Shown: one piece after another, positions 1 through 11,371 of the stretch
How the letters are laid out: each line of letters opens with the position of its first letter
Position numbering within the stretch: the stretch's first letter is position 1
Assembly: GCA_021791455.1 (NCBI GenBank)
Contig: JAJYWM010000115.1
Span: 1 to 11,371, forward strand
Length of the DNA stretch: 11,371 nt
DNA from: a bacterium
Lineage (GTDB): Bacteria > Chloroflexota > Dormibacteria > UBA8260 > Bog-877
Direction of reading: 5' to 3'
The notes under the pieces: generated by a model
Seen by the model: the letters and a program-made list of their open reading frames with translations, nothing else
Told to the model about the DNA's origin: nothing
Databases searched by the model: none
Made by a program: the position numbers and the translations under genes

Positions 1-1455
1 GCGCAGGTACTGATCCCCGAAGGCTCTGGCGGTGGCGTCGCGGGCGGCGTACAGCTCGGGATCTGTGATGGGCTCGAAGAGGCGCCGACGGACGATCTCG
101 AAGCTTTCCTCGGAGCTAGCAGGTCGCCACGCCGATTCAACCCTTCCGACCACCGTGCGCAACCGGGCCAGAGCCTCGCGACCTCCAGGTCCTCCCACCT
201 CGATACTTGGCCCGGTGTCCGAGCCCACTCGGTCGGATTCGGGGATGGAGATCACGACCATGGTGCCGGGAACCGCCTTCGCCGCCTCAGTCAGGGCCTG
301 CGCGAAGGAGAAGTGGGCGTCGAAGCTGCCAGCGGGCAGGTCCTGGCTGTGGTAAAGCTGGCGGGCGTAGGTGACCCACTCGTCGATCAGGATCAGCGAC
401 GGGCCGAAGCGCCGGAAGAGCTCATTCAGCGCCGCGCCGGGACTGGTGCCGGTCCGATCTGCCTCCGCGATTAGGGCGAACCCGTCTGCACCGCCGAGCT
501 GCCAGGCGATCTCCCCCCAGAGGGTCTTGATGACCGTCCCGTCGGGCTTGGTACTGGGTTGAGCCGGGGCGATTTCGACCCCGACGATGACCGCCCGTTG
601 GACCTTCGGCAGCTCACCGACCCCAGCCTTGTGGGCCAGATCCTGGACCTCCTGCGGCAGCTGCCGGAGCACTATGCCGGAGAAGAGGTGATACAGCGCG
701 AGTAGGGAGTGGGTCTTACCTCCCCCGAAGGTGGTCTGCAGGTCCACCACCGGAACCCCGCCCTGGCCACCAAGACGCAGCAACGCTTGGCGAAGCAGTT
801 GGCTGAGCCCTTCGGTGAGATAGGTCCTGGAGAAGAACTCAGCGGGGTCGAGATACTCCGGGGATCCGTCGCCTTGGAAGACCTGCCAAAGGTTGGCTGC
901 GAACTCAGCCTCCACGAAAGACCCAGATGCCACGTCGCGGTGCGGCAGGATCACCTCTCGCCAGGGTCGCAAGCCCGAGACCCCCTTCGCGGTTGCCGGC
1001 GCTAGTTTGGTCGCCTTGCGGGCCTCCTCGTCGAACCGCTGGCGCAGCACCTCATCGCGGGACCGCTTGACGACCTGCGCCTGTTTCTCTGCGGAGACCG
1101 CTGCCAGCAGGGCCTGGATGGCGTCGAGGGTGCGATATGTCTCATCCGAGTTGAAGGCCTCATTGTGAGCCCACCGATCTCTGGCATCACGGAGGATGCT
1201 GACCAGGTTTCGATCGCTGCGCTGCAGCACCTTGGCGAAGACGGGATTCCAGAAATCCCAGAGCACCTTCAGCTGAAACTGGGGATCGGTGAGCGAGACC
1301 TTGCGCCCGGGGCCAAGTGTCGAGGCGGCGACAGCCTGGACCCAGTCGGCCTTCCCCGGCGCTTGCTGGCGCATCTGCTCATCGACGAAGGGGGCCAGGC
1401 CCTCGCCCAGGACTTCCAGGGCGGTCTGGACCCGCTCTCGGTTGCTGGCGGTCAC
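1..1455 (-). CDS. DUF499 AAA+ ATPase with N-terminal Swt1-like HEPN domain (3' end beyond window)
   Basis: My own translation gives 485 codons open from a GTG at 1455 to the window edge; the C-terminal part is missing because the window ends, not because the gene is broken. GGAG of a GGAGAAG site lies 7 nt before the GTG, 13 nt after the methylase stop, so the two genes are one operon. Residues 1-125 are helical and carry R92-x4-H97 within RDRWAHNEAF, the signature of HEPN domains of the Swt1 type. The P-loop is TTFGGGKTHS (241-250, K247, T248), the Walker B strand is LILIDEW (354-360, D358, E359), and MVVISIPESD (399-408) looks like the sensor strand. This GGGKTH-type P-loop is typical of DUF499 (COG1483) ATPases, which pair with DUF1156 methylases in defence islands and are related to the BREX ATPases BrxC/PglY. 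It probably powers DNA sensing or complex remodelling; whether the HEPN part cuts RNA is unknown. Confidence 0.88.
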   Translation of the reverse strand, partial: MTASNRERVQTALEVLGEGLAPFVDEQMRQQAPGKADWVQAVAASTLGPGRKVSLTDPQFQLKVLWDFWNPVFAKVLQRSDRNLVSILRDARDRWAHNEAFNSDETYRTLDAIQALLAAVSAEKQAQVVKRSRDEVLRQRFDEEARKATKLAPATAKGVSGLRPWREVILPHRDVASGSFVEAEFAANLWQVFQGDGSPEYLDPAEFFSRTYLTEGLSQLLRQALLRLGGQGGVPVVDLQTTFGGGKTHSLLALYHLFSGIVLRQLPQEVQDLAHKAGVGELPKVQRAVIVGVEIAPAQPSTKPDGTVIKTLWGEIAWQLGGADGFALIAEADRTGTSPGAALNELFRRFGPSLILIDEWVTYARQLYHSQDLPAGSFDAHFSFAQALTEAAKAVPGTMVVISIPESDRVGSDTGPSIEVGGPGGREALARLRTVVGRVESAWRPASSEESFEIVRRRLFEPITDPELYAARDATARAFGDQYLR

Positions 1456-1468
1456 AACACTTCTCCAA

Positions 1469-4189
1469 TCACAAGAGAGTCTCCTGCCTTCCGTGCTGGC
1501 GCAAGTCTGCCGCCAGTCGAAGGATCTCCGGCCACGATGTGACCAGGTTGTTGAAAGCGAGGGCATCCTGGGTCCAGCCGTGTCGTTCCGAGGTCACGTA
1601 GAGACGGTATGCGAGGTCCCGGACGGCATCACCCATGTTGGAGTGAGGGACGAGAGCCTCGGCCGCGGTCTCCTCGCCGGACGATGCGAGCGCATGCACC
1701 AAGCTCTGGGTGAGGGCCCATACGCTTGGTGCGCCATCAAGCGAGCTGGTGGTATCAAACAGCCGCTCTCGGCTCGCGAGCTTCACCTTCCCAGCTCCGG
1801 CCTCCACGACTCCTCGTTCTTGGAGATGAGACACCGCAGTCACCTTCGCCTTGGAGAGGGTCTCGGCTTCCCCGAATGCGCCCTGCTCGAAGCCGTGCCC
1901 GTCGAACCACGCGACCGCCCAGCGGGTGTCGGGGTCGAACTCGCCCTCTTGCTCGGCCAGCACCTCGTCCAGCGCCTGGTTGATGAGCCCCAGCGCCGTG
2001 CCGACCCGCATGGGGTCTCCGTTGGCCTCGACGACCTTGCCGTACTTGGAGAACACCGCCATGCCTGGACCGATGGCGGCCTGGGCGAGGTCGACGGGTG
2101 CGATGAGTCCCTCCTGGAGCTCCCGGAGCGCCGTTGGGAGGCTGGCTCTCAGCTCGGCGATGAGGCCCCTCCGGTCGATGATCCCGGCGGTGGCGGAACG
2201 GGGGCGGCAGACGATGACTACCGACGACGCGAGCGCATTGGCCTTCTGACTGTTCGTTCTGTTTCCCAACTCGGTGCGCATCGGCCATGTCCCGGTGATC
2301 GCCAAGCCGCCGTTGATCAGGCCCTGCAGCATCGTTTCCCAACCAGTGGAGATGAGCCCATCGCCACCGGCCGTGTCGGCCTGCTTGAAGGCGTAGAAGA
2401 TGGTCATGGGAGTGGATGGATCCGCGATCTCCTTGAGCCGGTGAAAGGCCGCTCCGAACCCCTCTTCGAACTGCTCCTTGGCGCTCTCCTTGCCTCCGGA
2501 TCGGTAAGGATCGGCCACCAGCTCAGCGACCTTCGGGGTGAGCACGGTGGCGAACAAGTCCGGGTACAGACCGCCGATGGAGCGGCGCAGCCAAACGTAG
2601 AAGAAATCGGCCAGGTTGGCGTAGCCGATGTTGTCGTAGTACGGCGGGTCGGTGGACACGACGACTGGAGTGAGGGGGGCGGGTAGCGCGGTGGCGTCAA
2701 CCTGCTGCGCGGTCCCAGTGATAAGCGGGGTCAACAAGTCCAGCACTTTGGCGATACCGTTTACTGAGACAGTGAAGTCGCCGGCGGCCCCAGAGAACGG
2801 TTGCACTTCGGCATAGTCCCAAACCATGGGGAGGGCCTGCCGGGTGAAGCCATGAATGGCTTGATCCATTGACGCCTTCCAAGTCACCAGGCTATTGGTG
2901 ATATCCGCCATCTTGTCCACGCCAAGCCCCAGGTATGTCGCCACGGCGTCCGCGTAGGCGGGCTCCCCGCCATCGGCGATAACCTTCTCCCGGGCCTCCA
3001 TCACCAAGTCGGAGAACGTGGTGATGGATGTGAGCTGGCGGTTGGTGAAAGCATCGTGCCAGAGTTTCATGCCGTACATGGGGAGGCGGTCAACCTCGTG
3101 GGCGTTCCTGGTCACCTCCTGTGTAGGCACGTCGTCCGGTCGCGGCACCTGGGCTGCCCTGACATGCTCCTCGTTGGCCGGCAGGTATACGCGCCCCCGT
3201 TGGCCCTCTGCGACGATTGCCACCAGTTGCGCGCCAAGACGCTGCGCTCTACCCTCGCCCCGCACGTGATCCAGCGGGATCGGTGCGCCGCAGACCAGGC
3301 ACTTCGCGCCAGTTCGGAATACGGTGCCACTGTCAGGTGCGCCGTCCCCCTTGACTATCTCGAACCTCACCCCTTTGCCCTCAGGAATGGCCCGCATCCA
3401 GACCTCCTTGCCGGCCTTCGTGGAGAGGTAGAAGGAGCGGATCAGAGGGGCCGCAGCCCCGCAAGCCGGATTGGGGCAGGGGACGGTCCGTGACCAAATC
3501 CAGGCGATGACCGGAGCCTTGTCGCCACTCGGGAGAGGGGCCTGGGGGTAGAGGTGCCCGATCTGCCTCTTCGATTCTTTGAGCATCCATTCGCCATAGT
3601 GGCGGACATCCTGGGCCAGGCCACGGGCACCCGGCCATGCCTCGCCGCTCAGCCGCAGTCCTTCAGGGGTGTGGAGTGGCCGCTGCCCAGCGAACTTAGC
3701 GGGGAGCTCAATCAGGGCCTTGCAGATCAGGACGGCAACGGGGTTGAGGTCGCTGGCCTGGGCCACAAGCCCCAGCCGCTGTGCCTCGAGCGGTATCGAC
3801 CCGCCTCCGGCGAAGGGGTCCAAGACCGGCGGAGGATTCTCCCCCATGGACTTGCGGATCTCCGCCCGGGCCATTGCCAGGACGCGCTCGTTGGTCGAGT
3901 TCTCCCACTCCACCAGCTGCTCGATGATTCGGAATAGCCGCTGCCGCTCATCGGCCTGCAGTTCGACGGTGGGGAACTGGTCAGGGTGGGCGGAGGGGTC
4001 GTCAACCAGCTGGGCGAACAGGACCGCGCGGCAGGCGGCCAGCGGGCGCCGGGCCCACCACAGATGCAGAGTGGAGGGATGCCCATGGCGGATCGACTTC
4101 TCCCGGGCCGACGCCGCGTTGATCGCTTGGAGCGGGATCGCCACCTCGATCAGCTTGCGGGGAGCGGCCTCCGCGTCTCCGTCAGCCAT
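1469..4189 (-). CDS. DUF1156 adenine-specific DNA methyltransferase with zinc ribbon
   Basis: The 906-residue protein starts at the ATG at 4189; the frame is open for 11 more codons upstream, but this ATG overlaps the previous stop by 8 nt and precedes the conserved start of the domain. Residues 10-60 are the DUF1156 head (IPL, then REKSIRHGHPSTLHLWWARRPLA). SAM motif I is VLDPFAGGGSIPLEA (122-136), followed by an acidic SDLNP loop (146-150). Two cysteine pairs, C238/C243 and C297/C300, form the zinc ribbon. The catalytic motif is TDPPYYDN (513-520). Motif I before a long middle region before DPPY is the alpha-type order of N6-adenine methylases, and the family is COG1743. It should methylate adenine in DNA, marking self in a defence system. 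No weak SD was seen, so translation is probably coupled to the upstream small gene. No truncation or missing catalytic residue is visible. Confidence 0.93.
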   Translation of the reverse strand: MADGDAEAAPRKLIEVAIPLQAINAASAREKSIRHGHPSTLHLWWARRPLAACRAVLFAQLVDDPSAHPDQFPTVELQADERQRLFRIIEQLVEWENSTNERVLAMARAEIRKSMGENPPPVLDPFAGGGSIPLEAQRLGLVAQASDLNPVAVLICKALIELPAKFAGQRPLHTPEGLRLSGEAWPGARGLAQDVRHYGEWMLKESKRQIGHLYPQAPLPSGDKAPVIAWIWSRTVPCPNPACGAAAPLIRSFYLSTKAGKEVWMRAIPEGKGVRFEIVKGDGAPDSGTVFRTGAKCLVCGAPIPLDHVRGEGRAQRLGAQLVAIVAEGQRGRVYLPANEEHVRAAQVPRPDDVPTQEVTRNAHEVDRLPMYGMKLWHDAFTNRQLTSITTFSDLVMEAREKVIADGGEPAYADAVATYLGLGVDKMADITNSLVTWKASMDQAIHGFTRQALPMVWDYAEVQPFSGAAGDFTVSVNGIAKVLDLLTPLITGTAQQVDATALPAPLTPVVVSTDPPYYDNIGYANLADFFYVWLRRSIGGLYPDLFATVLTPKVAELVADPYRSGGKESAKEQFEEGFGAAFHRLKEIADPSTPMTIFYAFKQADTAGGDGLISTGWETMLQGLINGGLAITGTWPMRTELGNRTNSQKANALASSVVIVCRPRSATAGIIDRRGLIAELRASLPTALRELQEGLIAPVDLAQAAIGPGMAVFSKYGKVVEANGDPMRVGTALGLINQALDEVLAEQEGEFDPDTRWAVAWFDGHGFEQGAFGEAETLSKAKVTAVSHLQERGVVEAGAGKVKLASRERLFDTTSSLDGAPSVWALTQSLVHALASSGEETAAEALVPHSNMGDAVRDLAYRLYVTSERHGWTQDALAFNNLVTSWPEILRLAADLRQHGRQETLL

Positions 4190-4550
4190 TGCCGCGACCA
4201 ACCGATATGAGGATCGCCGCAACGGCTGCCAGTCCCAGCCCTATCAGCGCCGCGGTCTTCTGCCGATCAGATCGGCACCTATCGCAGGCCAGGGTCACCG
4301 CGTCGGCGATCACCTCGATTGGCGGTCCCCACCCGTACAGGCTGGCGAGGGGTAGCAGAATCTCACAGACCTCGGATGTCGTGGGGCCGTTCCAGAAGCC
4401 GCAGAGGTCCAACGCCGCAAACCGGGCGTCAGCCGCCAGGTCGTTGGCGAGTTGGCCAGCGTCCCAGAGATTGCCTGCCTCCCGTCTGGCCCACTCCGAG
4501 CGCTTCCCGGCGATGTAGCTGCTCAGCGCCCGTTGCTGGTCGTCCCTCAC
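4182..4550 (-). CDS. Small tail-anchored membrane protein of unknown function inside the defence operon
   Basis: I do not recognise this 122-residue protein. The GTG at 4550 is chosen because it lies 25 nt after the helicase stop and has GAAGG about 10 nt upstream; the only in-frame ATG, at 4748, would overlap the helicase gene by about 170 nt and add residues of shadow-like composition. Residues 1-95 are soluble and mostly helical, starting with a charged stretch (SSYIAGKRSEWARREAG) and containing DLCGFWNGPTTSEVCEILLPLA. C90 and C92 sit in a CDRCRSDRQK segment just before one hydrophobic span at 99-118 (AALIGLGLAAVAAILISV), leaving a tail of only four residues. This predicts a C-terminal membrane anchor with the body in the cytoplasm. 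Its last codons overlap the methylase start (ATGGCTGA), which supports a real, coupled gene. It could anchor the complex to the membrane or act as an effector; both are inference. Confidence 0.72.
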   Translation of the reverse strand: MRDDQQRALSSYIAGKRSEWARREAGNLWDAGQLANDLAADARFAALDLCGFWNGPTTSEVCEILLPLASLYGWGPPIEVIADAVTLACDRCRSDRQKTAALIGLGLAAVAAILISVGRGNG

Positions 4551-4575
4551 CTGAGGATGCCCTTCAGATTTCCGT

Positions 4576-7500
4576 TCACGATGGAACTCCCGCAGCCTCC
4601 CAGAGCCGCCTCCAGTCGAAGCTGGTGCTCGTCTCGGCGAAGTGTAGTCGCGGCGACTTGCCCGAGAAGGGGTCCCGCAGGTAGCGGACCCGCTCCCCGC
4701 CGTCGGTGAGCACCTCCACCAGCGCCAGGACGTAGTTCTGGCTGGCATTCAGCCCGGTCAGGATCTCGGTTCTGGTGACGGTGACGCTCTCCGATCCCTC
4801 GATCCTTCCCTTCACCTCGATGAGGTGGAGGTGCTGCTCGGAGTCGACGGAGCGGATGTCGTACCCGGGGTTGTTGGGCGGCATCTCACTCGGGTTTCGC
4901 CTCAGCATCCGCTCAGCCGCCAGCACCGCCTCCACTGCCCGCCGTTCCACCTCCTTGGTCTCCCGCGCCCGTGGGGGAGGTGAGTCAGATGGGCCCACCC
5001 CTTGACGCACCAGACCAACTGGGACGACGATTGCCGCTCCGACGACCACAGGTGGCAGCGGCTGAAGCTTGAGCTCCTGGTCCAGCTCCACCAGGCGCCG
5101 GTCGAGGCGGTGCTGCAAGTCGTCCGCCCGCGCGCGAGCCCGCTCCGGATTAATACGGGGCTGACGCCCCTGGCTGACCTGCTGCTGCAGCTCGGAGGCG
5201 CGCTTGTCCCAGTGGATGATCTCGGCGGTGAGTCTGGCCTGCACCACCGCCTTCACCTTGCGCACCCTCTCCTCGGTGCGCCGCCGCACCTCGGCCAGGT
5301 GCTCCGGCACGAGGGTTGAGATGGCGTAGTCCAACCCGGCGCTCTCCACGCCACGGGTGAGCCAGGGTGCAGTACGAAGGTCCGAAAGGCTGGAGAGCAG
5401 CTCCGGTCGTGGCGTCTCATAGTCGAGATATGGTGCTGGACCGGCCAGCGCCGGCTCACCCGTCGGTGCGAGGGTGACGAACTGAGCTCTTCGGGACACG
5501 GCCCGGGGTGGCAGGCCGTCCCGACGTCTGGCGTCTGCTATCTCGTGCTCCAGGAAGAGCAGCAGCTTCGGCACTTGGCCATCGTCGGTGGGGTCAACCA
5601 GGGTTGCCCCCTGGGTCAGCGCTCCCCCATCTCGAGCTAGGGTCAAGTCGATCACAGCCTCTAGCAGGGGGTGCCCAGGGCAGATGAACTCGGCCAGCGG
5701 CCGGCCGGGGATGGCGATAAGGGCCTTTTCGAAGGTCACTCGCTCGTAGCGCATCAGCAGTGGGCCCCGGCCAGGGACGTTGCGGATGGTGGCGGGGACG
5801 AAGGTCAGCTCGAACCGGTCCTGCTCCCGCTCCACCGCCCTGCCCCCAACCCTCTCCAAGGCGCCGAGGAAGAAGTCGCGCACGAAGTGAGGTTGCAGCT
5901 TCTGGGCGGCGGCCTCCTCCATCTGGAGGCGGACTTCCTGCACATCCACTACGCTCATCACGTCACTGGCGAGCGCCTCTCGCTCCACCAGCTCGGAGAG
6001 CCCTTCTCCCACCGCGGAGTTCACCACCTGGTGGAGCCGGGCGCGGACATCCGGCCGATCACCATACCGGATCGCCTCGATGAGGAGATCCCGGAGCTGG
6101 CGGCCCGGCAGTGCCTGGCCCAGGACGTCGAACACCTGCCCTCCCAGGGCGGCCCGCTGCTCCTCGAGCTTGCTGAGCAGCACCTCGTAAACCTGTCCCT
6201 CCCGGGTGTTCTCGGCGAGCAAGTTCCACATGTGGCAGACCTCGGTCTGCCCGATGCGGTGAATGCGCCCGAAGCGCTGCTCGATCCGGTTGGGATTCCA
6301 GGGCAGGTCGTAGTTGACCATGAGATGAGCTCTTTGCAGGTTGATCCCCTCGCCAGCGGCGTCGGTGGCGACCATCACCACCACTTGCGGGTCCTGGGTG
6401 AACAGCCCTTGGAGCCGGCGCCGCTCCTCCCGGTGGACTCCCCCGTGGATGGCGACCACTGCCTCGGCGCGCCCGAAGTAGCTGGAGAGGCGGGAGACCA
6501 GATAGTCGAGAGTGGCCCGGTACTCGGTGAAGATGATCAGCTTGCCGGGTCCAGGTCCCGCCATCTGGCCGTCCTTGGCGAGCATCCCCTGCAGCCCTCG
6601 CCACTTGCTGTCGGTGCCCATCTGGCGGACCTGCTTCGCGAGCTGCTCAAGACGGGTCACGGACCGTATCTCGGCTTCCAGCTCGGCCTTGGTCTGCGCG
6701 GCGGAGGCCTGGTCCACCGCCTCCTCGTCCAGCCGCTCAGCCTCATCAGAGTCGAGGTCGTCGAGGTCGTCCCCTCCCTCCTCGCTCAGCAGCTGGGAGA
6801 GACGGTTCAGGTTTGCTGACGGGGCCTCGGCGCCCTCGACGAGTCGCTTCTCCAGCCTCTCCCTTCGCCGGCTGAGCGACTGATAAATGGCCTCGGGTGA
6901 GGATGCCAGTCGACGCTGCAACCCGGTGAGGGCGAAGCCCACCACGGTGCGTTGTCCACCCCCCAGCCGGTCGGCCCGGTTCATCTCCTCCCGGACGTAC
7001 TGGGTCACCTCCTCGTACAGCTCCATCTCCGCTGGCGAGAGGGGGAATGGCACTGTGGTGGCCAGCCGTTCCGGGAAGAGCGGCCGGCCGTCGAAGCGGA
7101 GGATCTTCTCCTTGATCATCCGGCGCTGCAGGTCGGAGACATCCCCGGCTCTGCCTCTGCCTCTGCCCGCGAATCGGTCGGGGTCCAGCAGGGAGAGGAA
7201 GAGCTGGAAGTCCTCGTCCTTGCCCGAATGGGGGGTGGCGGTGAGCAGCAGGAAGTGCCGGCAGATCCCACCCAGGAGCTTGCCCAACCTGTATCGCTGT
7301 GTCTCCCGAACCTCGTCGCCCTGGTAATGGGCGCTCATCCGATGAGCCTCGTCGACAATGATCAGATCCCACTCGCTGGAGCGGAGGCGGGATTGAAGAT
7401 CCTCGCTGCGGGACAGCTGATCCATTCTGGCGATGAGGAGGGGTTCCTCGGCGAACGGGTTGCCATGCAGGCTGGCCTCCACAGCCTCCCTGGTCAGGAT

Positions 7501-8121
7501 CGAGAACTGCAGGGCGAACTTGGAGCTGAGCTCATCCTGCCACTGCGCCACCAGCCCGCCGGGCGCGACCACCAAACATCGCCGAAGGTCCCCGCGCAGC
7601 ATCAGCTCCTTTACGAAGAGGCCCGCCATGATCGTCTTGCCGGCCCCGGGATCGTCGGCCAGCAGGAAGCGGAGCGGTTGGCGAGGGAGCATCTCCCCAT
7701 ATACGGCCCGAATCTGGTGAGGAAGAGGCTCGAGAAGGGACAGGTGCACGGCCAGCATGGGATCGAAAAGGTAGGCGAGCCGGATCCTGCGCGCTTCGGC
7801 CGCGAGCCGAAATGCCGCCCCGTCGCCGTCCAGGGTCCATCTCCGATTGCTTTCACCCAGCTTGAGGCCCGCCTCGTCGGCTCGGAACAGCAGCCGCTGC
7901 GACACCTGGCCCGAGCTCTCCTGATATGTGAGGGTCACCGCTTCCTGCCCGTGCCAGGAGATCGCTACCACGGTCACCTCATCGCCCGGGACGATGCCGG
8001 CGACCAGCGCTCCTGCCGTGAGATCCTCCAGCTTGGCTATCGCGGCCCCTTCGGGGTTGGGATGGCAGAGGACTGCGCCAGGGCATGGCCGCCGAGAAGA
8101 AGGTGAAATCCGAGACGGCAA
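4576..8121 (-). CDS. SNF2-like DEAD/DEAH helicase with C-terminal DUF3883 nuclease-like domain
   Basis: Numbering is from the TTG at 8121 (1181 residues); the true start is probably the ATA at 8040 (residue 28, 1154 residues). The N-terminal part LEDLTAGALVAGIVPGDEVTVV is typical of a family of large helicases near restriction and defence genes. Helicase motifs in order: PHQ (134-136), DDPGAGKT (156-163), DEAH (257-260), LTATP (293-297), FTEYRATLDYL (531-541), ATDAAGEGINLQ (585-596) and QRFGRIHRIGQ (615-625). A very acidic segment lies at 447-470. Residues 940-1020 look like a coiled coil. The end holds NPGYDIRS (1084-1091) and HLIEVKGR (1099-1106): G-Y-D then E-V-K (D1088, E1102, K1104) match the PD-(D/E)xK-like core of DUF3883. 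The protein probably translocates on DNA and may cut it, as the helicase-nuclease arm beside the methylase. It resembles DISARM DrmD-type SNF2 helicases, but drmA and drmB are not in the window. Confidence 0.93.
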   Translation of the reverse strand: MPSRISPSSRRPCPGAVLCHPNPEGAAIAKLEDLTAGALVAGIVPGDEVTVVAISWHGQEAVTLTYQESSGQVSQRLLFRADEAGLKLGESNRRWTLDGDGAAFRLAAEARRIRLAYLFDPMLAVHLSLLEPLPHQIRAVYGEMLPRQPLRFLLADDPGAGKTIMAGLFVKELMLRGDLRRCLVVAPGGLVAQWQDELSSKFALQFSILTREAVEASLHGNPFAEEPLLIARMDQLSRSEDLQSRLRSSEWDLIIVDEAHRMSAHYQGDEVRETQRYRLGKLLGGICRHFLLLTATPHSGKDEDFQLFLSLLDPDRFAGRGRGRAGDVSDLQRRMIKEKILRFDGRPLFPERLATTVPFPLSPAEMELYEEVTQYVREEMNRADRLGGGQRTVVGFALTGLQRRLASSPEAIYQSLSRRRERLEKRLVEGAEAPSANLNRLSQLLSEEGGDDLDDLDSDEAERLDEEAVDQASAAQTKAELEAEIRSVTRLEQLAKQVRQMGTDSKWRGLQGMLAKDGQMAGPGPGKLIIFTEYRATLDYLVSRLSSYFGRAEAVVAIHGGVHREERRRLQGLFTQDPQVVVMVATDAAGEGINLQRAHLMVNYDLPWNPNRIEQRFGRIHRIGQTEVCHMWNLLAENTREGQVYEVLLSKLEEQRAALGGQVFDVLGQALPGRQLRDLLIEAIRYGDRPDVRARLHQVVNSAVGEGLSELVEREALASDVMSVVDVQEVRLQMEEAAAQKLQPHFVRDFFLGALERVGGRAVEREQDRFELTFVPATIRNVPGRGPLLMRYERVTFEKALIAIPGRPLAEFICPGHPLLEAVIDLTLARDGGALTQGATLVDPTDDGQVPKLLLFLEHEIADARRRDGLPPRAVSRRAQFVTLAPTGEPALAGPAPYLDYETPRPELLSSLSDLRTAPWLTRGVESAGLDYAISTLVPEHLAEVRRRTEERVRKVKAVVQARLTAEIIHWDKRASELQQQVSQGRQPRINPERARARADDLQHRLDRRLVELDQELKLQPLPPVVVGAAIVVPVGLVRQGVGPSDSPPPRARETKEVERRAVEAVLAAERMLRRNPSEMPPNNPGYDIRSVDSEQHLHLIEVKGRIEGSESVTVTRTEILTGLNASQNYVLALVEVLTDGGERVRYLRDPFSGKSPRLHFAETSTSFDWRRLWEAAGVPS
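8038..8051 (-). promoter_or_regulatory. Strong ribosome site with ATA as probable helicase start codon
   Basis: AAGGGG (8046-8051) stands 5 nt before ATA (8038-8040), followed by GCC AAG CTG GAG GAT. In proteins of this family that I recall, the initiator methionine lies two or three residues before the LEDLT motif, exactly where this ATA falls. The only in-frame ordinary start upstream is a TTG at 8121, which directly follows a TGA and has no ribosome site. The AAGGGG is the right arm of a CCCC-GAA-GGGG stem (8046-8056), which might partly hide it. A rare AUA start, a mutated ATG or a sequencing error are all possible. Confidence 0.5.
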
Positions 8122-8398
8122 TCAGTCGGTCCGTCCGTCAAGGGTCCAACCGGTGCGGCGAGAGAAGTGATCAGCGTCGGCATGCTGGAAGCATGGGCGC
8201 CGCCTCGCGTCGAGATCGAGCCTAGATTGACGCCCAGGACGGCAGCCATTTCGCGCTAGGAAGGCAGCGCGGCACTCCTTTCACCTGCGGAGCCCCGTAC
8301 TGAGCCGAATCCGATCAGACGGCGTGCTGCCTTGCGTCCTGACCACTGCACTCATTGCAGTGACCCCTTGAACCCAGCCACTCAGCCCCGCAGCCATC
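8122..8398 (-). other. Structured gap between TIR-like gene and helicase gene
   Basis: This 277-bp stretch has no recognisable gene but holds three perfect stem-loops: CACTGCA-ctcat-TGCAGTG (8344-8362), CGCGCT with AGCGCG around an 8-nt loop (8252-8271), and CATGCT-gga-AGCATG (8181-8195). None is followed by a T-run on the minus strand, so none is a classical terminator. TTGACG occurs on the minus strand at 8136-8141, but no matching -10 box stands 16-18 nt away. The stretch may be a leader of the helicase operon or an attenuating spacer. Confidence 0.4.
8281..8397 (-). CDS. Possible 38-residue small ORF (or 24 residues from the internal ATG at 8355)
   Basis: An ATG begins one base after the stop of the TIR-like gene (TGAGATG) and the frame runs 38 codons. 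A second in-frame ATG at 8355 has AAGGGG 8 nt upstream (8364-8369), a good ribosome site, and would make a 24-residue basic peptide starting MSAVVRTQGS. That ATG sits in the loop of the 8344-8362 hairpin, so folding could affect its use. The stop TGA is followed directly by AAGGAG. The peptide has no recognisable motif and could be a leader peptide or chance. Confidence 0.2.
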   Translation of the reverse strand: MAAGLSGWVQGVTAMSAVVRTQGSTPSDRIRLSTGLRR

Positions 8399-9769
8399 TC
8401 ACGTGCTGGGAGGTGTCCGGTCCGGATGCTTCCCAGCGATCTCGTCCCAAAACTCTGGATAAAACCGCGACAACGGGCTTTCCGCCGTGCCCTGGTCGCG
8501 CATGTCCTCTAGAGCCGCGCGGCACTGCCGGGTGATCTCCTGAAGGTGCAGTTCGATTTGAGGCACTAGCGTGTATATATCGGTGGTGTCAATGGTCACA
8601 GTGCGGAACTGACCCACGTCGAATGGCAGCTTGTCGGCAGTCCGGATGATCTGCACCACCGGTTTGCGGGTGGCGTGCCGCAGGGCAAGCTCGTAGTATA
8701 CATTCGGGTTGCTGAACGACAGGTCGGCGATCACCAGGCGAGCCTTGGTGAGCTGCTCGATGATTTGGCCGGTGATCAAGCCCGGCCGGCTGATTCTGTC
8801 CGCACGAACAGCCCGCAGGTTGAGCTCCTTAAGCGCTGGTTCGATGAGCGACGTCAGCACAAGATCGGCGTGCTTGCGCTGCTCCGATCCGGGGTCGCCA
8901 ATTGGTGAAATGACGAAGCAAGTGTCGGCGGTCATTGCCGTGGCCGTCACCTGAGCCTTCGAAGTTTCGCGCCGACGCCCTTTGTCTGAGCCTTTGAGCT
9001 CGGAGGCTGCAACAACCTCTGTGTAGTCGTTCTCCGCCACCGGCTGTGCCAAATCGGTGTCCTTTCCGGCCTGCTCGGCGACTTGGTCGACGAGCTGCTC
9101 GATGGCCACCAGGTGTTCAGTACCTCCGATGTTGCGGATCAGATGCAGGTCGCGAGCGTTTGCGAGGAATGTCTCGACGCATTCCGCGGCTTTCGAATCG
9201 GCTACCCCCACCTCCCGGGCGGCATCTCGGAGCACCTGGCTCGCGGGCAGCCTTGAGCCCTTGTACTTTTCATAGATAGCATTGAACGGCGCGATTTTGC
9301 TAATGGCGCACTCAGCACGGGCCGCGGCCTTCGTCGCTGGTGCGGCGTTGGGATCGGTGGCGGTAGTACCCAGCGAGGTCAGCTGCAGCCATTCGGCGGC
9401 ATACGAGCCGGTGGTGAGGCCGTACTGCCTGCTGGCGGTTATGAGCTTGCGGGACGTGCTGCTGTCTGGCGACCGCTTCAGCGCCTCGAACAACGTAAGG
9501 CGGCGGACCCGTTGGCCGGAGCCGTGGGTCTGGATGGCTTTGGCGAGGAATAGTGCCTCCTCAAAAGACATGGCAGGGAACTCCCGCGGGGTGCGTGTCC
9601 GGGTGCCAGAATCGTTCCCACTCATCTCGGGGGTGTCTAGTGCTTCCGCAGCACCCGCCGTTGCTTCGCTGGCTGCCGGAGGTTGGACCGTGTCCGGCCC
9701 GCGCGAGTTGCCAGTGTCATCGACGGTCGCGCTCCCTGCGGGGCGGGCTGGCCCATTGGCCTCAGTCAT
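8399..9769 (-). CDS. TIR/nucleoside-deoxyribosyltransferase-like protein with winged-helix-like N-terminal half
   Basis: The protein has 456 residues from the ATG at 9769. Residues 1-64 are Ala/Pro/Gly/Thr-rich and probably disordered; an alternative start at M67 (9571) has GGGAG 9 nt upstream. Residues 68-135 (SFEEALFLAKAI, VRRLTLFEAL, SRKLITASRQYGLTTGSY, WLQLT) look like a winged-helix module, followed by a helical part to about 230. Residues 284-395 form a Rossmann-like domain: CFVISPIG (284-291), SEQRKHAD (295-302), VRADRIS (321-327), LVIADLSFSNPNVYYELALRHA (345-366) and KPVVQI (369-374). The NPNVYYEL glutamate, E360, matches the position of the catalytic glutamate of nucleoside 2-deoxyribosyltransferases and of TIR-type NAD hydrolases. 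In this neighbourhood it is best read as a nucleotide- or NAD-degrading effector, or a sensor for the locus. That function is inferred; the fold call is fairly firm. It is 278 bp from the helicase gene, so may have its own control. Confidence 0.75.
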   Translation of the reverse strand: MTEANGPARPAGSATVDDTGNSRGPDTVQPPAASEATAGAAEALDTPEMSGNDSGTRTRTPREFPAMSFEEALFLAKAIQTHGSGQRVRRLTLFEALKRSPDSSTSRKLITASRQYGLTTGSYAAEWLQLTSLGTTATDPNAAPATKAAARAECAISKIAPFNAIYEKYKGSRLPASQVLRDAAREVGVADSKAAECVETFLANARDLHLIRNIGGTEHLVAIEQLVDQVAEQAGKDTDLAQPVAENDYTEVVAASELKGSDKGRRRETSKAQVTATAMTADTCFVISPIGDPGSEQRKHADLVLTSLIEPALKELNLRAVRADRISRPGLITGQIIEQLTKARLVIADLSFSNPNVYYELALRHATRKPVVQIIRTADKLPFDVGQFRTVTIDTTDIYTLVPQIELHLQEITRQCRAALEDMRDQGTAESPLSRFYPEFWDEIAGKHPDRTPPST

Positions 9770-9775
9770 GATGAG

Positions 9776-9786
9776 AGGGTAACCCT
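9776..9786. promoter_or_regulatory. 11-bp palindrome AGGGT-A-ACCCT next to the TIR-like gene start
   Basis: The perfect inverted repeat lies 6 bp upstream of the ATG at 9769, where a ribosome site would be expected. The position would suit an operator or a translational block. No other copy was found, and such a short palindrome may be chance. Confidence 0.25.
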
Positions 9787-9935
9787 TTTGAGTGCGTTTT
9801 GCGCTCTACGAGGGGAATGTGGATGTCGACGTGTGGGTACTTTCGAAGTGTTCAGTCAGCGACGAGCGATTTTACCTACGTGTGCATCGTGTGCATCGAC
9901 CACCACCGGGTCGCCCTTCCCACCCGCCGCAACCT

Positions 9936-9978
9936 GCCCGGGGCCGCGGCTCACCTACGTTGAGCCGCGACCCCGGGC
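9936..9978. repeat. 18-bp stem, 7-nt loop hairpin
   Basis: The arm 9936-9953 (GCCCGGGGCCGCGGCTCA) pairs with 9961-9978 around the loop CCTACGT. The only mismatch (9944 with 9970) becomes a G-U pair in a minus-strand transcript, so the structure is complete in RNA reading through from the hydrolase gene. No T-run follows. It could be a rho-independent-like stop of the U-less kind seen in high-GC bacteria, or a DNA-level recognition structure. Confidence 0.6.
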
Positions 9979-10172
9979 CTGGGGTGCAGGTGACTGCGAC
10001 CGGCCCAGCCCGCGACCCCGGGCCGGGGGTGCAGGTGACCTCCTCCAGCCCCGACCCCGGGCGGGGGTGCAGGGGGCTTCCTCCAGCCCCGACCCCGGGC
10101 CGGGGGTGACCTCTCCCCCGGCCAGCCGCGGCCGAGGGCGCAGCTCTTACCGGTGGCTCTCCGACCCCGGGC
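9969..10172. repeat. Degenerate tandem repeats with GC-rich mini-hairpins
   Basis: Copies of GACCCCGGGCC begin at 9969, 10014, 10053 (shortened), 10091 and 10163 (ending GGGCTC), with spacings of 45, 39, 38 and 72 bp. The first three continue with GGGGTGCAGG and the middle units share TCCTCCAGCCCC. Four contain ACCCC facing GGGGT around a 5-6 nt loop (9970-9985, 10015-10030, 10054-10068, 10092-10107). The array starts at the stop codon of the hydrolase gene. It resembles a REP-like or minisatellite array and may end transcription or shield the mRNA 3' end. Confidence 0.7.
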
Positions 10173-11060
10173 TCAGCTGATAAGGCCAGCCACGGCGGGG
10201 ACCTGGGCGAACGCCCCGGCGATCACCTCATATCCCGTCTCATTGGGATGGATGTTGGGGGTGGAGCCGCACATCCAGGTCAGCTGGCAGATCCGCTCCA
10301 CATCGACGGGCAGCCCGGTGGTGGGGTCGGTGGTGGTGTCCAGGGTCTGGAAGGCCGACTGGACGTCGGCCACCTGGTCCCCGGCCCGCTGGTACACCCC
10401 CTCCAGCAGCTGGTTGAAGGTCCCCGTCACGGTGAGCGACTCCGCGGCCAGGGTGGTCCCGCCGGGGAGGAGGTAGGCGGCGAGGAAGGGGTCGTAGTAG
10501 TTCATGCCCACGATCGGCACCCCCCTCCCGGCGGCGCCCCGGAGGGCGGTGAGGATCACCGGCAGCTGCCTTGCCACCTCGGCCAGTCCCTGGAGAACGC
10601 AGCTCTGGCTGATGCTGCCCACGCTCTGGACGCAGCCGTCCACGTTGTTGGCGCCGATGTCGATGGTGATGAGCGCCACCTGGCCCCGGTGCTGCGCCAG
10701 GAAGCGGACGGCGCGGGCCAGCTGGGGCGCGCCCCCCGCGTAGCAGGGGCTGCCCACCCCACTCAGCATCGAGGAGGTGGTCTCCCCCGGGCAGCTGAGG
10801 TTGACCGCCTCAAGGTTGGGATGGTCCCTCCGCAGCCCCTGGTAGAGGTCGCAGGCGTACCCGTACTGGTAGCCGCAGGAGGTGAGCTGGCCGATGGAGG
10901 CCGGCTGGTACCCGGTGGCCAGGGAGTCCCCCAGCGCCAGGTAGTAGCTGGGAGCCGCCGGAGGGCCGGGCCGGCCCGCGGCGCTGGCCACCTCCGGCAC
11001 CGCCGCCAGCAGCAGCCCCACAAGGGCCGCGATCCCGAGACGCCAGCTCCATCTGCTCAT
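10173..11060 (-). CDS. Secreted SGNH/GDSL-family hydrolase
   Basis: The 295-residue protein starts at the ATG at 11060, which has AAGGGGGAAGG just upstream; a GTG at 11078 lies before that site and is less likely. Residues 1-27 are a signal peptide (basic start, hydrophobic 8-21, ASA at 25-27), so it is exported. Block I is LALGDSLATGY (41-51) with nucleophile S46; block II is the glycine of CPGET (G92); block III is IGANN (135-139), with oxyanion N138 kept and the usual Asp replaced by N139; block V is PNIHPNETGY (268-277) with catalytic H271. The usual Asp two residues before the His is Asn here, so it may work as a Ser-His dyad. Eight cysteines in the mature part (62, 70, 90, 106, 143, 154, 258, 264) suggest four disulfides. 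It should cleave esters or lipids outside the cell; the substrate is unknown. It has no evident link to the defence genes. Confidence 0.9.
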   Translation of the reverse strand: MSRWSWRLGIAALVGLLLAAVPEVASAAGRPGPPAAPSYYLALGDSLATGYQPASIGQLTSCGYQYGYACDLYQGLRRDHPNLEAVNLSCPGETTSSMLSGVGSPCYAGGAPQLARAVRFLAQHRGQVALITIDIGANNVDGCVQSVGSISQSCVLQGLAEVARQLPVILTALRGAAGRGVPIVGMNYYDPFLAAYLLPGGTTLAAESLTVTGTFNQLLEGVYQRAGDQVADVQSAFQTLDTTTDPTTGLPVDVERICQLTWMCGSTPNIHPNETGYEVIAGAFAQVPAVAGLIS

Positions 11061-11100
11061 GACCTTCCCCCTTGGCACCTGCTCCGCCGTCCCGGCGGGG

Positions 11101-11108
11101 ACTATACT
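11101..11108. promoter_or_regulatory. Overlapping -10-like boxes in the divergent intergenic region
   Basis: TATACT on the plus strand (11103-11108) overlaps TATAGT on the minus strand (11101-11106), in the only AT-rich spot between the hydrolase and the plus-strand gene. On the minus strand this leaves a leader of about 35 nt before the ATG at 11060. No convincing -35 is seen on either strand (TTGGCA at 11072-11077 is 25 nt away, too far). Confidence 0.35.
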
Positions 11109-11189
11109 CCCGGCCCGCGGCGATTTGGGAGAGGCCTTTTGGGCCTGGACCCGCGGACCGCCCTCCCGGGGGCCGCCCGGAGGACCAGG

Positions 11190-11371
11190 ATGAGGGTGGA
11201 CCAGCTCCCCGACCTCGCCGAGCTCTTCGCCGCCAGCACCGGGCGGGCCAGCAGCTCACGCGAGTACCGCTCGGTGCTGCGCTCCTTCGCCGCCTTCGCC
11301 ACCGAGCGGGGCGCGGGTTTGCCGGATCAGCTCTCCCCCACCCTCCTCCTCCACTACCAAGCACAGCTGGC
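11190..11371 (+). CDS. Probable tyrosine recombinase/integrase, N-terminal fragment (3' end beyond window)
   Basis: An open frame from the ATG at 11190 runs off the window after 60 full codons. GGAGG lies about 7 nt upstream, an ideal ribosome site. The visible part (LAELFAAS, then SSSREYRSVLRSFAAFATERG, then LSPTLLLHYQAQL) has the helical pattern and spacing of the SAM-like core-binding domain of phage-type integrases. The catalytic domain with the Arg-His-Arg-Tyr residues is not in the window, so the call rests only on the N-terminal pattern. It is transcribed away from the hydrolase gene, 129 bp apart. If confirmed, it would point to a mobile element adjoining the defence locus, or be a chromosomal Xer-like recombinase. 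Confidence 0.5.
   Translation, partial: MRVDQLPDLAELFAASTGRASSSREYRSVLRSFAAFATERGAGLPDQLSPTLLLHYQAQL

Follow-up and report, generated by a model that had tools for sequence, protein, structure and literature searches.

Several descriptions of the type of locus studied here are in print. In 2013, HEPN-DUF499 proteins were reported in an operon with restriction-modification (R-M) components and an SNF2 helicase fused to DUF3883 (the Ava_2192 group, PMC3710099). A three-gene set was then named Hma, with 1,638 instances, and was found to be often accompanied by Septu type I (Payne et al. 2021, PMC8565338). In 2026 the Hma set was renamed Type-1 BREX-related (BR), and counted in 2446 taxa, 1370 of them HEPN-fused; 79% of the Type-1 taxa have a C-terminal nuclease domain on the helicase (PMC12839542). 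That paper proposes a mechanism for Type-1 BR, refers to a study that tested the helicase experimentally, and already describes nucleases embedded in core loci. The chemistry of HmaB is given as m5C (5-methylcytosine) methylation in the text of PMC8565338 and as N6 in PMC12839542; the PADLOC HmaB model is labelled DNA-adenine methylase. We analysed an 11,371-nucleotide (nt) stretch of a Dormibacteria genome (GCA_021791455.1, contig JAJYWM010000115.1, positions 1 to 11,371), hereafter the window. Judged from its sequence, it very probably carries an intact-looking Hma (Type-1 BR) system, R-M-like and HEPN-fused, whose cargo slot is occupied by an accessory gene specific to its clade.

Four genes form a run on the minus strand, in the order hmaA, small gene, hmaB, hmaC when read from right to left:

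4576..8121, minus strand: hmaA, SNF2-type helicase with a C-terminal NOV_C/DUF3883 domain (PF00176, PF00271, PF13020); start uncertain, TTG at 8121 or near 8040
4182..4550, minus strand: small accessory gene of 122 amino acids (aa), GTG start at 4550; product predicted helical with a hydrophobic C-terminal tail
1469..4189, minus strand: hmaB, DUF1156 amino-methyltransferase of 906 aa, ATG start at 4189 (PF06634, PADLOC HmaB, motifs)
1..1455, minus strand: hmaC, partial, Swt1-like HEPN followed by a DUF499 AAA+ ATPase; likely GTG start at 1455, continuing past the left edge of the window

The hmaA and small genes are separated by 25 nt, the small gene overlaps hmaB by 8 nt, and 13 nt lie between hmaB and hmaC. 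With junctions this tight, the four genes look like a single transcript with coupled translation.

The three large proteins each found an Hma protein as their best PADLOC model: HmaA for the helicase (1453 bits, residues 29-1177), HmaB for the methylase (1052 bits), and HmaC for the partial ATPase (426 bits, profile positions 3-313 of 941). The HmaA and HmaB matches are near full length. In Pfam, the helicase matched SNF2 (PF00176), Helicase_C (PF00271) and NOV_C (PF13020, 61 bits), the latter being the domain that the original prediction, made from the sequence alone, had called DUF3883. The methylase matched DUF1156 (PF06634, 109 bits). The ATPase, of which 485 residues are visible from the likely GTG at 1455, matched HEPN_Swt1 at its N-terminus (PF18731, 102 bits) and, truncated as it is, DUF499 (PF04465, 47 bits). 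The original prediction was correct in placing DUF499, DUF1156 and DUF3883 in one tight minus-strand operon, and had overlooked the HEPN domain.

The same prediction had proposed an undescribed subtype, and for the most part this does not stand: PADLOC assigns the three large genes to Hma, and the gene set has been in print since 2013 with its HEPN fusion. Agreement of the gene set with a named system had been listed beforehand as one outcome that would speak against it, and the PADLOC run gave this agreement for the core, i.e. Hma or Type-1 BREX-related. An undescribed core system is rejected by this match. What was observed in the original prediction was thus confirmed in part only, and so was its interpretation: modification-linked defence is supported by homology, while the undescribed make-up is not. 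This means that the core is a widespread published system, and that the claim of a new make-up can be dropped.

Compared with Hma (PADLOC; PMC8565338), the window has the three genes in the same A-B-C order and on a single strand; it differs by the 122-aa gene inserted after hmaA and before hmaB. With HEPN-fused Type-1 BR it shares HEPN plus a DUF499 ATPase, a DUF1156 methylase, and an SNF2 helicase with a C-terminal nuclease domain; the accessible main text of PMC12839542 contains no mention of transmembrane, small protein, TIR domain or toll, and so gives no account of the small gene under these terms. In the accessible part of PMC8565338 no mention of HEPN was found. The HEPN-DUF499 R-M systems of PMC3710099 resemble the window by the HEPN-DUF499 and SNF2-DUF3883 fusions and by an operon with R-M components, and differ in that the accessible part of that paper mentions no small gene.

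Relatives were collected as 86 Hma loci, namely 6 annotated plasmid loci (from 180 records with an HmaB match) and 80 of 209 confirmed genome-contig loci. Five window proteins were searched in them by tblastn (E 1e-3 for the TIR-like protein discussed below); truncated loci may hide neighbours. All three Hma proteins were matched in 65 of the 86. Loci L039, L056, L057, L058, L061, L067, L069 and L080 have 10 kb upstream of the HmaB match and no HmaA relative there; the first five of these do have an HmaC match downstream.

The catalytic motifs that were looked for in the three core proteins are present. The helicase has GAGKT, DEAH and QRFGRIHRIGQ, followed by the nuclease motif IEVKGR; the methylase has DPFAGGGS and DPPYYDN; and the ATPase has GGGKTH (Walker A), LILIDEW (Walker B) and RDRWAH, the Rx4H motif of HEPN. 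The DPPY motif fits an amino-methyltransferase. At the key motif positions the same residues are kept by the relatives that align there, which are 62-67 (HmaA), 87 (HmaB) and 66-76 (HmaC) of 87 loci. HmaC is matched in 76 loci, and in 66 of them the alignment reaches the HEPN motif, with the arginine in 63/66 and the histidine in 66/66. From its Pfam match and its conserved IEVKGR, the NOV_C/DUF3883 domain most probably corresponds to the C-terminal nuclease domain of the helicase.

A quick tree of HmaB was built with 87 rows: the window, 85 of the 86 loci (L054 was dropped as too short) and L092, a 19.9 kb locus found by a profile search of genomes. Branch support is by the Shimodaira-Hasegawa-like approximate likelihood ratio test (SH-aLRT), with no bootstrap. 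The window, L007, L008 and L092 form one clade (SH-aLRT 100), within which the window and L007 are sisters (SH-aLRT 99; 64% identity in HmaB; the letter make-up of L007 was flagged as odd). L092 comes from an independent genome, G1131, and has hmaA, small gene, hmaB and hmaC in this order. The small protein is encoded in the hmaA-hmaB junction of three of the four clade members, i.e. the window, L008 (45% identity) and L092 (41%). It is missing from L007, the 83 rows outside the clade showed no copy, and a permissive profile search of all open reading frames (ORFs) in the 86 loci yielded none beyond L008 (next best E 0.36). This distribution needs two changes on the tree, either a gain and a loss or two gains. 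The tabulation of neighbours that the original prediction had called for therefore upholds a link between the small gene and the system only within one small clade.

The 218-nt junction of L007 was also searched for a remnant of the small gene. Three matches of 17-24 residues were obtained there (best E 0.009, with a 400-base piece and the low-complexity filter off); two overlap the ends of hmaA or hmaB, one is on the opposite strand, and a fourth was weaker still. We read them as chance.

The position of the small gene turned out to be a variable one. Junction length, counted between the stop codon of hmaA and the residue where the HmaB match begins, could be measured in 69 of the 86 loci, leaving out 16 without an HmaA match and L068, where HmaA was matched only on the other strand. 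It was below 150 nt in 29 loci, 150-499 nt in 8 (L008 included), 500-1499 nt in 9 and at least 1500 nt in 23, so that 32/69 loci have 500 nt or more. Examples of filled junctions are L003:3803-7886, L037:8012-10040, L071:3310-10000 and L084:5172-10000. The junctions contain 78 ORFs of at least 60 aa, from which 20, mostly long ORFs and cluster representatives, were chosen for a PADLOC scan. At E 1e-8 or better, 16 of these 20 had a match and 4 did not. The matches were to PtuA/PtuB (Septu), HEC-01A/B, NsnA/B, AriA/AriB-like proteins (PARIS), HEC-09, PDC-S19, PDC-S59, the mad6/PD-T4-6 kinase, a PD-T4-4_A-like ATPase, PDC-S32, TmtA and, weakly, Aga (E 6e-10). By clustering, a PtuA-like ORF is present in six loci; a literature search for Septu nested in Hma returned no relevant paper. 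When a filled slot is defined as at least 450 nt, plus the three rows with the small gene, the state of the slot changes at least 13 times over 71 rows of the HmaB tree. We conclude that the hmaA-hmaB junction is a changeable slot, able to hold complete other defence modules, and that it makes a practical target for the discovery of further defence genes.

The hmaB-hmaC junction varies too, being 800 nt or longer in 19 of 76 loci, L092 included. With junctions this variable, an extra gene in such an operon is common in kind, and what is special in the window is which gene it is. In two plasmid loci from different phyla, a gene of about 122 aa annotated as 'four helix bundle protein' lies between hmaB and hmaC (L003:10889-11257 and L005:11042-11410).

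The 122-aa ORF is a real gene. Its product had no match in Pfam, PADLOC or NCBIfam, and its best E value in PHROGs was 0.43. A protein database nevertheless gave 35 sequences of the family, 34 of them full-length (the window's own entry included) and one a fragment (P0035). The 33 close relatives are database protein entries, without genomic context; one of them, P0004, is named as coming from Candidatus Dormibacteria. A profile search added five distant relatives at about 40% identity, among which P0040 is the gene of L008. A low-confidence structure model (predicted local distance difference test, pLDDT, 63; predicted template modelling score, pTM, 0.46) shows helices throughout, and neither a fold comparison (best E 4.3) nor a profile search (best E 0.42) yielded a match in the PDB.

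In genomes, a 15-row profile, A2, found the small protein in 1 of 6, 0 of 296 (phylum of G001), 2 of 296 (class of G002), 0 of 400 (phylum of G003) and 3 of 298 (order of G002); these samples overlap partly, and since in the four large ones at most 11-15 candidates per genome were scored, some members may have been missed. Strong matches came only from G002, the genome of L008, and from G1131, and a weak one from G558 (E 3.6e-4). No relative was seen in viral contigs or in plasmids, nor in a single-sequence search of genome contigs. The latter was too narrow, because L008, which was found there through HmaB, carries a relative at 45% identity.

Every biochemical step, and the role of the small protein too, is inferred; the mechanism follows the published model (PMC12839542). 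HmaB would methylate adenine and so mark self DNA. HmaC, the AAA+ ATPase, may scan or loop DNA and assemble the complex. HmaA would then move along unmarked DNA and use its C-terminal PD-(D/E)XK-like domain for cleavage, and the HEPN domain on HmaC might serve as a reserve RNase when defence fails. The 122-aa gene is best read as a clade-specific accessory, in a slot that elsewhere is occupied by other genes or whole defence modules, or is nearly empty. The leading candidate role for its product, at slightly below even odds, would be that of an adaptor or regulator, a small helical protein produced along with HmaA and HmaB. The gene is a defined and testable accessory of a system whose mechanism has so far mostly been deduced.

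Several observations weigh against an intact Hma system with an accessory of its own. The triad is not universal, as the 16 loci of 86 without an HmaA match show (some of them truncated). In the window hmaC is incomplete, and its C-terminal domains, among which an RRM-like one would be expected, fall outside. The start codon of hmaA is ambiguous, the first standard start in frame being the TTG at 8121. Immediately after the HEPN arginine, at position 130, the window carries D, as against N in 60 of 66 relatives. L007, the sister of the window in HmaB, does not have the small gene, which means that the Hma system does not always need it. Finally, the small protein has distant relatives in the absence of hma, as in G558, where one is encoded but HmaB has no match.

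Two further features concern the start of the operon. At 8038-8040 the window reads ATA where L007 has the ATG of hmaA, and GAAGGGG, which resembles a ribosome site, lies just before. No sigma-70-type promoter was detected by a simple scan of 7900-10300, which says little for a G+C-rich genome of this kind.

The same slot could hold the small gene as self-sufficient cargo, using the junction for co-expression only, as Septu or PARIS-like modules do elsewhere. This is a serious though doubtful alternative. It is favoured by the 13 or more changes of slot state, by the defence models matched by 16 of the 20 chosen slot ORFs and by the distant relatives that live away from hma; against it stand that this is a single 122-aa gene with no partner, and that in two diverged clade members its place is the same. 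The surroundings of the distant relatives (L089, L101-L104) are varied, with plasmid-like genes by eye, a KAP NTPase and a helix-turn-helix gene, and no common neighbour was seen among them. In one of these, L101:2092-2496 is a distant tailed relative located two genes away from a large KAP-family NTPase.

The C-terminal tail raises another question, since the original prediction had spoken of a new small membrane protein. A 19-residue C-terminal stretch with a mean hydropathy of at least 1.6 is found in 30 of the 34 close sequences, the window's included; the values are lower (1.32-1.56) in P0026, P0027, P0033 and P0034. The five distant database relatives have no hydrophobic C-terminal tail (P0040 reaches 1.77, but inside the protein). 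The slot-mates lack it as well, the best hydropathy in the last 35 residues being 0.68 for L008 and 0.82 for L092. A wider set, reached through the weak match in G558, comes from five genomes, and close to the C-terminus every member of it has a stretch that reaches 1.67-2.67; against the small-protein profile it scored 94.6%, E 7e-8, over 83 columns before the tail, in a single comparison of a set built on one query. The gene itself stands, but its membrane nature is uncertain, given the four lower values among the 34 and the distant relatives and slot-mates without a tail.

These data bear on two stronger versions of the accessory. It is unlikely that one Hma lineage contains the helical family, often membrane-tailed, as a co-translated and integral subunit that couples restriction of DNA to the membrane or governs the HEPN RNase; if it did, this would be a true Hma subtype. 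Improbable, too, and a shade more so, is a distinct subtype in which the small protein would anchor Hma at the cell membrane, whether as a component such as a tail-anchored sensor or as a membrane-damaging effector. The hydrophobic stretch seen in all but four of the 34 close sequences, the tailed members of the wider set and the overlap with hmaB point that way, but the relatives that sit in hma slots have no tail, L007 does without the gene, and the fold model is of low confidence.

The next gene upstream of hmaA, on the same strand and at least 277 nt away, had been counted as a component of the locus:

8399..9769, minus strand: TIR/deoxyribosyltransferase-like gene (PHROG 3634 and 10872), probably a separate unit

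It could be imagined as an NADase effector triggered by Hma. The predicted C-terminal domain of its product is an alpha/beta domain resembling TIR, MilB, DNPH1, deoxyribosyltransferase and flavodoxin-like folds, and N, P, N, V, Y and E are invariant in a 30-row alignment. However, no relative was found in any of the 86 Hma loci, where the HmaA start is present in 62, 56 of these with at least 1.5 kb upstream of hmaA, nor in the 19.9 kb of L092. With 0/86 loci and such a gap, membership of Hma is rejected, a triggered effector is very unlikely, and the gene is a bystander as far as tested. At least 989 database proteins are related to it at E 1e-5 or better. In plasmids, 78 records were matched, none over 80% of the length. 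None of 296 genomes from the phylum of G001 had a match at E 1e-40, but with at most 6 candidates scored in each genome this shows nothing.

A variant of DISARM, BREX or Type-2 BR is the least probable explanation: the helicase also matches DrmD (388 bits) and BrxH (358 bits), but far below HmaA, NCBIfam cut-offs are not reached, and no drmB, pglZ, brxL or DUF3780 is among the matches listed for six window proteins in Pfam, PADLOC and NCBIfam (the flanks lie outside the window). Among these same matches, which for the helicase are the best 25 of 58 in PADLOC and the best 25 of 28 in NCBIfam, there is no N-terminal HKD nuclease on the helicase, and the drmA and drmD models of PADLOC match the helicase only, below HmaA. 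As to the 'anti-phage-associated' names of NCBI, invoked in the original prediction, the DUF499 and DUF1156 proteins are homologous to those of the NCBI DUF499/DUF1156/phospholipase-D-like set. They differ in falling below the equivalog cut-offs, with 82 bits against 1200 for DUF499_antiphage, on the partial protein only, and 102 against 1000 for DUF1156_antiphage on the whole protein, and in that the window has no DUF3780 match. We infer that this NCBI set is Type-2 BR.

The remainder of the window, to the right of the TIR-like gene, contains the following:

9963-10108: very G+C-rich tandem repeat (period 38, 3.6 copies), separating the TIR-like gene from the lipase gene
10173-11078, minus strand: GDSL-family lipase/acylhydrolase gene (Pfam), no relation to defence seen
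11184-11371, plus strand: possible start of a tyrosine recombinase at the window edge, from a sub-threshold Pfam match only (Phage_int_SAM_1, E 0.077)

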